A DNA stretch of 20,139 bases from IMG/VR virus record IMGVR_UViG_3300025128_000464, positions 1 through 20,139 of that record. One strand, 5' to 3'. The notes beneath the pieces were generated by a model, which saw nothing but the letters and a program-made list of their open reading frames with translations, ran no database searches and was not told the DNA's origin. Below, piece after piece: positions 7,361-17,622 of the stretch (positions within the stretch are counted from its first letter, which is position 1; each line of letters opens with the position of its first letter). A program made the translations under genes and the position numbers. Source of the DNA: a virus.

Positions 7361-9151
7361 TTATTTATCCTTACTTAGATCAAGAACTAAACCTTCAGGT
7401 GGCATAGCGTTTTCATAATCAACTAATCTCTCTGCGTAACGTGCTTCTGCCTCTCCACCTTTATTTATGTAGGATTGTTCTGCTATATTATATAATTCAT
7501 CTAATCTTCTTTTCTCTGGTTGAACTATTAAAGTTTGTAGCTTCATATATTCTTTAAAATTTTTATTCCCTGCTAATCTATTAGCTAATGCCTCTTCTAC
7601 TTCTGTGAAATTAGCATCCATTGGATGAAGAGTATCTACCTTTAGATGTATTTTATTAGGTCCTAAACTCTTAACTTGTTGAAATTCTCTTTTAGCTAAC
7701 TTCTCAACCATATCCATAAAAGCCTCTTGTGCAAATACAGATTGTAGATATTGAGATGTAGGATCAGATTGTTCTTGTATGTATACTTTTTTATTACTAG
7801 GTGACATACCTTTTGTTATTGATTCTATGTATTCACTTAATAAATCTATCTGTTCAAATAATTCTTTGTCCATCTTTTTTGAGACTTTATCTAATTTTTT
7901 TCTTCTGCCGATATAGTTTGAATTATTTTCTTTTAATATACCTAGAATACTAGTGCCATTTTCAAATCCCTCTCTAGCTTGAACAGCGTGTTGTATTTCA
8001 TGTATTAGTGATCTTTTAACATCATCTGCATTACCACTAGCTAAATATATCACATCTTCTGCACGATCATAACTTGCTAAAGTTTTACCTCGTGTAAACT
8101 GTTGATCAGGATTTATCTTTTGCTCTTTTATTAATATGTTACCTATTGGTTGAAAGTCCCCATAATATTTTTTTAATGGTGTATTATATGCACGATACAA
8201 ATCTTCATAGTTTAACATATTTCTCAGTCGCATAGGATAGCTATCTAATTTAGAAAAATCTAGAAACTCATTAGGTACTGCATCTCCTTGCACAGCCTCT
8301 CTAGCAAAACTTAAATTGTCTAATTTTAAAGTAGCTTCTTTAGGATTTAATACAGTTCTTAGTTTTCCGTCTGTTCCTCTATATACTTTAAACTCTTCAA
8401 ATAATTTAGTTCTATCTTGCTGACTGAGTTTTTCATAATTAACTCTAGATACAATTCCAGTAGCAAGATCCATATCCTCTTTACCTATTTTATCTAAGTC
8501 AGATCTTAACATAGGTTCTTTTCCAGCATCTTTTAGTAATTTAGTTTCAGCGTCTTGATATGCACGTATCCTTTCCTTACCTACAGAGCTTCGTTCTCCT
8601 ATGATGTTAAAATCTATTTTAGGTTTATTAATATCATCTGTTTGTTTTGTAACATCTACAACTTTTTTTAAATCAGCACCTTCTGTAACAAGATCACTTT
8701 TTACAAAGTCACTCTTAGATAACGTGTCTTTTACTGTGTTATATAAGGTAGTTGCACCATCCGATAACTTATCTATAAATTTTGCAGGAGCTAAAAATGC
8801 ACCAGTAGGTGAAAGTATCTCCCCTACCATTTGATCTGTGTTTTCAGGATTAGAATCAATACCTGTTATTTCTTTGAAACCATCATCAAATGCTTTTCTA
8901 CCATACTGCTTTTCAAAGTTTTGTAAGTTATCTTTTATTAACATAGCTAACGGATTATTTGCATAATCAGCTAAAAAAGTATTTGCTTTCTCTGCTATGG
9001 TTATTGCATCAGAAGGTAATGCCGCAGTTCCTGTTAACAAACCAGTTCCCGTTGCCTTGGCTTTTTCTGCTATTTCATCTATGCTTCTAAACTGTGGTAG
9101 AGCATCAGAGTAAAATGCTTTCTCAGTTTGTTCTCTTAGATCATTCTGCAT
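7361..9151 (-). CDS. Polyvalent-type virion protein with zinc metallopeptidase domain (HEIQH)
   Basis: This 596-residue protein carries a clear zincin signature: SLIHEIQHAVQAREGF at 381-396, where H384 and H388 would bind zinc and E385 would act as base. A GEAEAR motif at 566-571 supplies a likely third ligand glutamate, with the intervening helices typical of the large polyvalent protein (LPD) metallopeptidase domains. Another LPD-style patch, FKVYRGTDGKLRTVLNP, is at 254-270. The N-terminal part (30-130) has GTAALPSDA and a hydrophobic, helix-rich region seen in virion proteins of marine phages. Polyvalent proteins are carried in the capsid and injected with the DNA, where they are thought to act on host defences. 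Location directly after portal fits an ejected protein. Catalysis and target are not shown by sequence. Confidence 0.72.
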   Translation of the reverse strand: MQNDLREQTEKAFYSDALPQFRSIDEIAEKAKATGTGLLTGTAALPSDAITIAEKANTFLADYANNPLAMLIKDNLQNFEKQYGRKAFDDGFKEITGIDSNPENTDQMVGEILSPTGAFLAPAKFIDKLSDGATTLYNTVKDTLSKSDFVKSDLVTEGADLKKVVDVTKQTDDINKPKIDFNIIGERSSVGKERIRAYQDAETKLLKDAGKEPMLRSDLDKIGKEDMDLATGIVSRVNYEKLSQQDRTKLFEEFKVYRGTDGKLRTVLNPKEATLKLDNLSFAREAVQGDAVPNEFLDFSKLDSYPMRLRNMLNYEDLYRAYNTPLKKYYGDFQPIGNILIKEQKINPDQQFTRGKTLASYDRAEDVIYLASGNADDVKRSLIHEIQHAVQAREGFENGTSILGILKENNSNYIGRRKKLDKVSKKMDKELFEQIDLLSEYIESITKGMSPSNKKVYIQEQSDPTSQYLQSVFAQEAFMDMVEKLAKREFQQVKSLGPNKIHLKVDTLHPMDANFTEVEEALANRLAGNKNFKEYMKLQTLIVQPEKRRLDELYNIAEQSYINKGGEAEARYAERLVDYENAMPPEGLVLDLSKDK

Positions 9152-15167: not shown

Positions 15168-15284
15168 CTACATACATAAATCTTCATACTTAGTTGTATG
15201 AAGTCTGTGCCTTGCTAATTCTCTAGCAGAACTTATGCCAATTCTACTGTTATGTCTTAGAATGTTTATCAACCAATTTATCAT
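15168..15284 (-). CDS. 38-residue microprotein
   Basis: This frame from ATG 15284 to TAG 15168 overlaps the end of the DUF1289-like gene and stops eight bases before the next gene. It reads MINWLINILRHNSRIG, SARELARHRLHTTKYEDL and CM, an amphipathic N-terminus followed by a basic helix with RHRLHTTKYE. I recall related short proteins with the same HTTKYE ending from marine phages, so I treat it as real, but I know no function. A purine-rich AGAAG lies near the start. Confidence 0.62.
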   Translation of the reverse strand: MINWLINILRHNSRIGISSARELARHRLHTTKYEDLCM

Positions 15285-15384
15285 ATGCTTCTTTTATTTC
15301 CTCTATAGTTCTTTTACATCCTACACAAATATCGTTTTCAAGTCTACAGACACCTATACAAGGTGTTAAAATTTTCCTGTCCAT
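15250..15384 (-). CDS. DUF1289-like microprotein (four-cysteine)
   Basis: The frame starts at ATG 15384, inside the end of the one-TM gene, and gives 44 residues. After MDRKILT it has PCIGVCRLENDICVGCKRT, which is the C-x3-C-x6-C-x2-C pattern with the GC(K/R)RT end of the DUF1289 family of small bacterial proteins, followed by a helix IEEIKEAYDKLVDKH. The cysteines (C9, C13, C20, C23) could hold a metal. DUF1289 proteins are common in proteobacteria and some phages; their function is not known to me. No strong ribosome site is visible, so expression may rely on coupling to the preceding gene. Confidence 0.72.
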   Translation of the reverse strand: MDRKILTPCIGVCRLENDICVGCKRTIEEIKEAYDKLVDKHSKT

Positions 15385-15810: not shown

Positions 15811-15993
15811 TTACCTTTTCCTTATGGGTTTACAATATGCAGTTATACGTAAAGTAGGTCCTTCCTCTTGTGGTATGGGTGGCTGTCTATGCAGTCTCTC
15901 TGCGAAATATAAACATCTATCTAAATCTTGGAAGGTTTGTGTTTGGTCTATTACTCTTACTCCCATCATAAACACAAGCACAAACTCAATCAT
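15811..15993 (-). CDS. 60-residue small protein, hydrophobic N-terminus
   Basis: The reading frame begins MIEFVLVFMMGVRVIDQTQT and continues with DLDRCLYFAERLHRQPPIP, a G-T-L-R-I-TAYC part and a basic end KPIRKR. The first 13 residues are hydrophobic and may be a weak signal or membrane anchor. The two cysteines in CLYFAERLH and TAYCKP are spaced like those of related small marine-phage proteins that I recall. The AGGAG seven bases before the ATG is strong and lies inside the coding region of the eight-cysteine peptide, whose stop overlaps this ATG (ATGA). Function is unknown. Confidence 0.76.
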   Translation of the reverse strand: MIEFVLVFMMGVRVIDQTQTFQDLDRCLYFAERLHRQPPIPQEEGPTLRITAYCKPIRKR

Positions 15994-16106
15994 ACTGGTG
16001 CTCCTAACACCTCTTCTTCTTGTTCTTTGTGGCAGTCACAGTTGCATTCCTCACAATCGCAATCATAACATTCACAAGTATCACACCTTTTTCTTTTTTC
16101 GTTCAT
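15990..16106 (-). CDS. 38-residue peptide with eight cysteines (metallothionein-like composition)
   Basis: Frame from ATG 16106 to TGA 15990; the stop overlaps the next start (ATGA) and the first 26 bases overlap the end of the gene before it. After MNEKRKR come eight cysteines at positions 8, 11, 13, 16, 18, 21, 23 and 25, in a C-x2-C-x-C repeat with D and E between them, then a HKEQEEEVLGAPV tail. This alternation of C with acidic residues is like a metal-binding peptide. I do not recognise the family. The ATGA link to the 60-residue gene and the fact that the C-terminal codons carry that gene's ribosome site support it as translated. No clear ribosome site is seen for its own start. Confidence 0.6.
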   Translation of the reverse strand: MNEKRKRCDTCECYDCDCEECNCDCHKEQEEEVLGAPV

Positions 16107-16383
16107 GTGCTTTTTTTAAACTTTCTTTGGCTCTTTTAAAGATATTTACAACTTCAGTCTTGCCCATTACTTTAGCTCTTTGCTCACCGACTGTAAGTAT
16201 CTGTATCTTTCTCGCATATGGCTTATTGATCTTTTTAACTTTTGTAACTGTGTTTCGTGCATCTGTTGGGGTGGCGAACTTGATGCTAACTGTGTCTTTA
16301 GGATTTTCATCTGTGTATAAACGTCTGCCTGAACCTTTGGGTTTTTTACCTGTTCCAACTTTAGGATCTTTCTTTTTAGCCAT
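16081..16383 (-). CDS. Basic conserved marine-phage protein (KKDPKxGTGKKPKGSGRRLYTDE family)
   Basis: The 100-residue protein begins MAKKKDPKVGTGKKPKGSG, then RRLYTDENPKDTVSIKFATP, a KINKPYARKIQILTVGEQRA part and a C-terminal helix ending in a run of lysines. The N-terminal 40 residues are a pattern I know from many T7-like and other marine phages, where it marks a small protein of unknown role. The K/R content is about one third. Its start overlaps the stop of the upstream gene (TAATG). A nucleic-acid-binding role is likely from charge alone and nothing more specific can be said. Confidence 0.8.
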   Translation of the reverse strand: MAKKKDPKVGTGKKPKGSGRRLYTDENPKDTVSIKFATPTDARNTVTKVKKINKPYARKIQILTVGEQRAKVMGKTEVVNIFKRAKESLKKAHERKKKKV

Positions 16384-16694: not shown

Positions 16695-16973
16695 TTATGC
16701 CATTGGGTTTACTTTTTTAGCCTTACGGGTTCGTCTAAAAGATCTGTTCTTCGATGCAGATTTAGTTGTCAAGTTTGATAATCTATTATCTTTAGGATTA
16801 CCATTCTTGTGTGCTACATCTTTCCCCTTTACATTTACCCCCTTCTTTTTCAGAAGATTACGAGCAGCATTTCTGCTGTCTCGCTTTTTAATTTGTTCAG
16901 GCTTACCATGATAATTCTGATACTCCTTTTTATAATTTCTTTTTGTTTTTCTTTTTCTTGTTGTTTGTGTCAT
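16695..16973 (-). CDS. HNH-endonuclease-like small basic protein
   Basis: The protein has 92 residues: a basic N-terminus (TRKRKTKRNYKKEYQN), KPEQIKKRDSRNAARNLLKK, and at 51-68 KDVAHKNGNPKDNRLSNL, which carries the H...GN..DNR..NL signature of the HNH fold used by homing endonucleases. A typical DHxDGN start is changed to AHKNGN, so the first metal-binding position is altered and activity is uncertain. I know related proteins as widespread in marine phages, usually called hypothetical. It may bind DNA and nick it, or have lost catalysis and serve as a DNA-binding protein. Its start lies inside the upstream gene by 44 bases, in a region where that gene encodes a lysine-rich tail. Confidence 0.75.
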   Translation of the reverse strand: MTQTTRKRKTKRNYKKEYQNYHGKPEQIKKRDSRNAARNLLKKKGVNVKGKDVAHKNGNPKDNRLSNLTTKSASKNRSFRRTRKAKKVNPMA

Positions 16974-17622
16974 CGTATAAATTATTAAAAGTTGTAAAAG
17001 GATCTAAATAAGACTCATGTGCCTCTGCTGAATGTAGCCACTGCGATGGTGCAAAATCAGGAGCACCTTCTCCAGTAACCCATAGTGCTGGACTTGTTGC
17101 TCTAACTCTGTTGTTAGGTAAAGCTACTAAGTTACCAGTCCATTTACCAGCATCTAATAAATACAATACGTGTGATTGCTTATGTTGTGCTGGATCGTCA
17201 GCTATATCACTTTCTGTGTAGTCGACAGTAAATAAATACTTTGCAGTAAAAAATTTATTGTCTATTTTGCATAGCCACGGAGAAGAACTAACTCTATCCA
17301 TAACTATAACTGAATGATGCCTAGCTTCGCAGTCCCACGGTTGACATAGATGATCTTCCATTGGTTCTGCCCATTCGTCTACTGGTATGTCTGCTACGAG
17401 TGCTTGTATAGGCATTCTTGCCCACATTGCACCACCATGAACATTTTCTTTTTCATCGCATCCCGTGAACACAACTTGGAAACTTAGTGACCTATCAGGT
17501 ATTGTGTTAACTGCGAAAGCTAAAGCGTGAAGGAACTCACCATGATACTTAGAGTGATTGCAAGTGAATTCTTTACGTACCCAACACTTAAAATGTGGTA
17601 CGTTACTGATTAGGTAAGACAT
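16930..17622 (-). CDS. Highly conserved marine-phage protein of unknown function (SYLISNxPHFKCWVRKEFT)
   Basis: I recognise this 230-residue protein from many marine phages, always without a function. Its conserved body includes YLISNVPHFKCWVRKEFT at 3-20, KYHGEFLHALAFAV, FQVVFTGCDEKENVHGGAMW, HLCQPWDCEARHHSV, PWLCKIDNKFFTAKYLFTVD, SDIADDPAQHKQSHVLYLLD and APDFAPSQWLH. It has an unusually even mix of aromatic, Cys and His residues with several C and H sites that could bind metal (C13, C21, H22, C93, C98). The last 15 residues are a lysine/asparagine tail. The start overlaps the preceding stop (TAATG). A structural or enzymatic role is open. It is unusually large and well conserved for this block of tiny genes. 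Confidence 0.86.
   Translation of the reverse strand: MSYLISNVPHFKCWVRKEFTCNHSKYHGEFLHALAFAVNTIPDRSLSFQVVFTGCDEKENVHGGAMWARMPIQALVADIPVDEWAEPMEDHLCQPWDCEARHHSVIVMDRVSSSPWLCKIDNKFFTAKYLFTVDYTESDIADDPAQHKQSHVLYLLDAGKWTGNLVALPNNRVRATSPALWVTGEGAPDFAPSQWLHSAEAHESYLDPFTTFNNLYDDTNNKKKKNKKKL

Follow-up and report, generated by a model that had tools for sequence, protein, structure and literature searches.

A short open reading frame (ORF) on the minus strand of a marine phage sequence is a genuine, translated and strongly constrained gene. It encodes a 38-residue mini-protein with a conserved set of seven cysteines and one histidine (Cys7His) and represents an uncatalogued family of phage mini-proteins, here called family A, with an equally uncatalogued sister family, family B. 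Judging from composition and conservation, the peptide very probably binds metal, and it would probably hold two ions; overall, we tentatively read it as a metallothionein-like mini-protein, made late in infection, that serves as a metal buffer or donor. The window, which is the whole stretch of DNA analyzed here, consists of 20,139 bases of an IMG/VR virus record from an HMO-2011-type marine podovirus. Its large terminase matches its counterparts in Roseobacter phage CRP-1 and Puniceispirillum phage HMO-2011 at 84-85% identity over the 89% that aligns. Phages of the HMO-2011 type rank with the most abundant in the sea, and the majority of their gene families are without an assigned function (PMC9038755).

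Translation of the minus strand gives MNEKRKRCDTCECYDCDCEECNCDCHKEQEEEVLGAPV, with cysteines at positions 8, 11, 13, 16, 18, 21, 23, and 25 and a histidine, His26, directly after the last of them; this confirms the length and all eight cysteine positions of a sequence-only reading that had first drawn attention to the peptide. The plus strand over the same interval is interrupted by a stop. Cysteine makes up 21% of the peptide and 42% of its core, with both C-x-C and C-x2-C spacing; the net charge without cysteines is -7, and the 38 residues contain no signal peptide. The gene lies among minus-strand genes that overlap or almost touch (Table 1). The end of P100 overlaps its start by 26 nt (16081-16106), and its own end is joined to P60 by the ATGA proposed earlier (15993-15990). 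The peptide's gene also supplies the ribosome site of P60, as had been suggested: an AGGAG inside the ORF (16005-16001, minus strand) ends 7 nt ahead of the P60 ATG. Stop-free stretches of at least 30 codons with 8 cysteines in 19 residues are rare, with one in the window and one in total among 200 first-order Markov shuffles of it.

Table 1. Features in and around the mini-protein gene (positions in the window).
Feature	Position	Strand	Remarks
Family A Cys7His mini-protein gene, 38 aa	15990..16106	-	
19-residue core C8-H26, C-x-T-C-x-C-Y-x-C-x4-C-x-C-x-C-H	16029..16085	-	Cys18 variable; 129 distinct versions
C-terminal tail	15990..16028	-	Lineage-variable; holds AGGAG (16001-16005) and the ATGA overlap for the next gene
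P100, upstream partner	16081..16383	-	100 aa, basic
P60, downstream partner	15811..15993	-	60 aa, hydrophobic start
P147	15366..15809	-	147 aa, C-terminal membrane segment; PHROG 32327
DUF1289 small Cys4 protein	15250..15384	-	Three genes downstream; Pfam PF06945, E 8.5e-11

Scans of IMG/VR with the neighbouring genes and with a back-translated Cys/His pattern yielded 237 family A loci. They sit in the late block of marine phages of the HMO-2011 type, flanked by the same two genes. Because some loci represent overlapping parts of a single contig, we prefer the counts of distinct versions (129 at the nucleotide level, with 72 distinct core peptides). The frame is open in all 237 related loci, and no break was found in close relatives. 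Ten residues (C8, T10, C11, C13, Y14, C16, C21, C23, C25, and H26) are invariant in 129 of 129 versions, a constancy to be read with the fact that the collection itself required the seven cysteines, the histidine, and Thr10. Among the loci found by synteny only, no family A member lacks a required residue, save at cut contig ends. Position 18 is cysteine in 91 of the 129 versions and otherwise T, V, K, I, P, Y, A, S, M, E, or D. The expectation that the cysteines would be kept across relatives thus held for seven of them, but not for Cys18. As Cys18 is free to change, the conserved ligand set is Cys7His, and these eight ligands would suffice for two tetrahedral metal ions.

Selection on the frame is purifying. 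By the Nei-Gojobori method, pN/pS is 0.10 over the 19-codon core; pN is 0 at the codons for the seven cysteines and the T, Y, and H, where pS is saturated, and the ratio at the remaining core codons is 0.22. Codon-level constraint together with the invariant ligands argues that the family A frame is a translated gene. A spurious ORF within a compositionally biased stretch might be suspected from the short length and from the gene's absence from annotation libraries, but codon-level conservation over 129 versions and the dN/dS pattern already refute it, and the two other forward frames carry stops in 110 of 119 and 119 of 119 distinct members; we regard this explanation as practically dismissed. 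The proposal of a translated peptide of metal-binding type in the late block is supported by purifying selection, the Cys7His set, and ATGA coupling.

The peptide resembles metallothioneins in several respects. It is small and high in cysteine, with C-x-C and C-x2-C spacing, and its conserved cysteines and histidine (seven Cys plus His, pN = 0) are under purifying selection; the earlier description of its composition as metallothionein-like is borne out to this extent, but it understates a core that has seven conserved cysteines, a histidine ligand, and Thr10 and Tyr14. Few or no aromatic residues are expected of a metallothionein, and here family A departs, with Tyr14 invariant, though the rule is not absolute for bacterial members. 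Classical metallothioneins have spacers rich in lysine and serine, unlike the acidic spacers of this peptide. Since profile matches fail and family A does not conform in its aromatics, the peptide cannot be assigned to a known metallothionein family. Histidine often serves as a ligand in the metallothioneins of bacteria and plants (PMC10612145), and the closest working principle is that of the one-cluster metallothioneins of these two groups. Like SmtA, PmtA, and related bacterial metallothioneins, the peptide is small, has C-x-C/C-x2-C spacing and an extra histidine ligand, and probably forms a Zn-thiolate cluster; however, SmtA holds a four-zinc cluster, whereas the phage peptide has 38 residues and a Cys7His set, and it differs from these proteins in its invariant Tyr and Thr, its strongly acidic character, its phage origin, and the lack of a detectable sequence match. 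One-cluster domains such as the wheat Ec-1 gamma domain (Zn2Cys6) likewise place closely spaced cysteines around two ions in about 20-25 residues, but the phage peptide is Cys7His rather than Cys6, with other spacing and no sequence match, in a comparison made from the literature only (PMC10612145).

Searches of reference collections placed neither family among known proteins. Family A had no match in Pfam at E <= 1, and hence none to the metallothioneins there, none in NCBIfam at E <= 10, and none in PHROGs or the PDB by sequence or profile. Family B had no Pfam match at E <= 10 and nothing beyond chance in PHROGs and the PDB. Among 50,697 phage records, family A found no match, subject to possible masking of the query by the BLAST low-complexity filter, and family B reached only a chance-level match in cultured phages. 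In phages CRP-235 and CRP-738, the equivalent slot is filled by an unrelated lysine-rich ORF. Across 84,980 genomes of bacteria and archaea (257 Gb), a scan for the family A spacing pattern returned 103 stretches; every one that was translated proved repetitive or due to chance, and none of these had the family A signature. Within 385 genomes of one class, the family A profile matched nothing and the family B profile gave four weak matches, two of them interrupted by stops; known phage contigs included as a positive control were detected. We found no report of phage metallothioneins in the open-access literature. AlphaFold2, run on family A with 62 relatives and without metal, gave a mean pLDDT of 61 and no informative fold.

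Family B (C-D-S-C-x-E-C-x-C-[DN]-P-x-V-C-[KR]-C-x-C-H; 101 loci, 47 distinct cores) was retrieved with a pattern in which the third cysteine is shifted by one position. It shares with family A a 19-residue core with cysteines at 1, 4, 9, 14, 16, and 18 and His19, as well as the same late block. The third cysteine occupies core position 7, against 6 in family A, a constancy that follows in the family B set from the construction of the pattern, and it is absent in a few members; Pro and Val replace C18 and E20. The set constant across the superfamily is therefore Cys 1, 4, 9, 14, 16, and 18 plus His 19, with the third cysteine at 6 (family A), at 7 (family B), or missing. The family B core is without aromatic residues and has near-invariant Asp, Ser, and Glu. 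Family B peptides, unlike those of family A, often have an additional cysteine immediately ahead of the core or a C-x-C...C-x-C arm at the N-terminus. Profile comparison of the two families (hhalign probability 73%, E 3e-5, scores of a kind that cysteine composition inflates) is no more than suggestive of common ancestry. The two never share one locus. Family B loci (L534-L649, e.g., L537, L568, and L597) follow the order P230-P102-B-P92-P130 in 33 cases and B-P102-P92 in 24.

A HesB/IscA-type Fe-S carrier (Pfam PF01521, E 1.6e-15) immediately adjoins 18 of the 101 family B loci, on either side, mostly downstream of the mini-protein gene but upstream in L597. Such a neighbor occurs in 0 of 237 family A loci and 0 of 224 others. 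Conversely, a scan that started from HesB turned up 26 close relatives (>=75% identity); 23 of them are accompanied by a B-type peptide encoded in the same orientation, within about 1.4 kb and mostly within 350 bp. Many of these contigs were already among the family B loci, and common descent may account for some of the linkage. Among the HesB-linked B-type peptides, those of L683, L684, and L687 are without the third cysteine. Through this neighborhood, the superfamily is linked to the handling of metal or Fe-S. The neighborhood also raises an alternative that we consider unlikely, in which the peptide is itself a partner in Fe-S or iron handling that binds either Fe(II) or a small Fe-S cluster, or exchanges metal with the HesB/IscA carrier. 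For family A, the DUF1289 gene three genes away could be cited in the same sense, but relatives without the family A gene still have DUF1289, no family A locus has HesB, and most family B loci are without it; the linkage is in part explicable by lineage ancestry. The Fe-S_biosyn domain that defines HesB/IscA proteins is missing from the peptide and present only in the family B neighbor, and it is from this neighbor only that an Fe-S reading derives.

DUF1289, which lies in the same operon, was considered as a functional partner of family A, a candidacy weakened by its persistence in relatives without the mini-protein. For a 230-aa gene upstream (16930-17622, minus strand), the best label comes from PHROG 3704 (E 2e-29), 'ferredoxin'; it looks doubtful, as the protein has no Pfam ferredoxin domain, and we set it aside. 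Farther away, among head and tail genes, lies a 596-residue ORF with an HEIQH motif (7361-9151, minus strand). The suggestion that the peptide could supply metal to this HEIQH peptidase found no support: the two have only one genome as common ground, and the type B relatives adjoin an Fe-S carrier, not a zinc peptidase.

Family A precedes P60 in nearly all loci, mostly in the order P102-P100-A-P60-P147. In L362, L374, and L381, its frame extends into P60 in another frame, giving a tail that ends ...YRQMPVFC and a longer overlap. Loci found by synteny with P100 and P60 adjacent revealed a clean absence of the gene in nine relatives, where the P100 stop overlaps the P60 start and P60 is kept and coupled. 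On a tree of P147, which served as both synteny anchor and tree marker and gives a rough tree of few columns, the loci without family A need three changes, at least two of them forced by supported branches, and the C-terminal tail types (GVPV/GAPV, EKGND, QLELDFVN, HNDRV...) are scattered. These absences and scattered tails indicate that family A is an accessory cassette subject to loss and exchange.

The same loci bear on whether the ORF could act in cis, as a leader peptide whose cysteine codons sense cysteine or redox state and control the coupled downstream gene. Eight cysteine codons in 38 and the ATGA coupling to P60 would fit such a role, and a proposal of this kind exists for mycobacteria, where cysteine-rich upstream ORFs are likewise short and translationally coupled to the gene that follows (PMC4633059). 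In the mycobacterial ORFs, however, the cysteine codons cluster toward the C-terminus, with a presumed action in cis, whereas the phage peptide keeps its ligand spacing exactly, along with His26, Thr10, and Tyr14, while codons vary. Further, there is no unusual RNA structure (z -0.6), family A stands in mid-operon, families A and B precede different genes, and relatives without family A keep the downstream gene coupled to the preceding one. We therefore consider a leader function very unlikely.

A more serious, though still doubtful, alternative is that the peptide is a zinc mini-domain working as a protein-protein interface, with the Cys7His core as scaffold and either the Thr10/Tyr14 face or the variable tail binding a protein of the host or of the virion, for instance as a host-takeover factor. 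The invariant non-ligand residues Thr10 and Tyr14 of family A and the near-invariant Asp/Ser/Glu of family B are consistent with this, as are several C-terminal tails that recombine over the P147 tree and in part look like clamp-binding motifs. Tails of this group end in QLELDF or QLDLDF in family A (L086, L098, L112, L282, L289, and L294), and family B tails of L615, L634, and L641 belong with them, QLDFW being the family B form; we take these endings to resemble the hexapeptide that binds the sliding clamp. Clamp-like motifs occur, however, in a minority of tails, there is no conserved surface beyond two or three residues, and the predicted model is uninformative.

Between a metallothionein-like buffer or donor and an interaction domain held by zinc, we narrowly prefer the former, based on variable capacity, a movable third cysteine, and patchy occurrence. 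The optional eighth cysteine and the extra arms of family B fit a capacity-type metal binder, a third cysteine that is shifted or lost between subfamilies fits the tolerance of a loose thiolate cluster, and patchy presence with exchange fits an accessory gene. Against a buffer, Tyr14 and Thr10 are invariant, yet they are not typical ligands and would be needless for a pure buffer. On this reading, the seven cysteines and one histidine would wrap around probably two divalent ions, most likely zinc, held as Cys4 plus Cys3His or as one small cluster, with copper(I) also possible. The bound ions would give a fold to an otherwise unstructured acidic peptide. Produced late, with packaging and lysis proteins, the peptide might act as a metal buffer or donor in the cytoplasm of the infected cell, a role we propose tentatively, as an accessory function gained, lost, and swapped among phage lineages.

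That a conserved 38-residue peptide is absent from every searched library implies that gene callers and profile libraries overlook phage mini-protein families. Provided that the peptide binds metal, phages would have a metallothionein-like protein of their own, and phage effects on cellular zinc, copper, and iron in the metal-poor ocean would become directly testable; at 38 residues, the peptide is short enough for chemical synthesis. A broader idea, to which we give a small chance, is that the Cys7His superfamily of families A and B works with phage Fe-S or metal-handling proteins (HesB in family B) as a late metal-trafficking module of abundant ocean podoviruses. Lastly, small cysteine-rich ORFs with differing patterns lie near P100/P102 in a few other loci (L202:2473-2635, L214:2966-3119, L192:4334-4459, L239:3374-3448, and L039), and those of L202 and L214 are alike, each with 8 cysteines.
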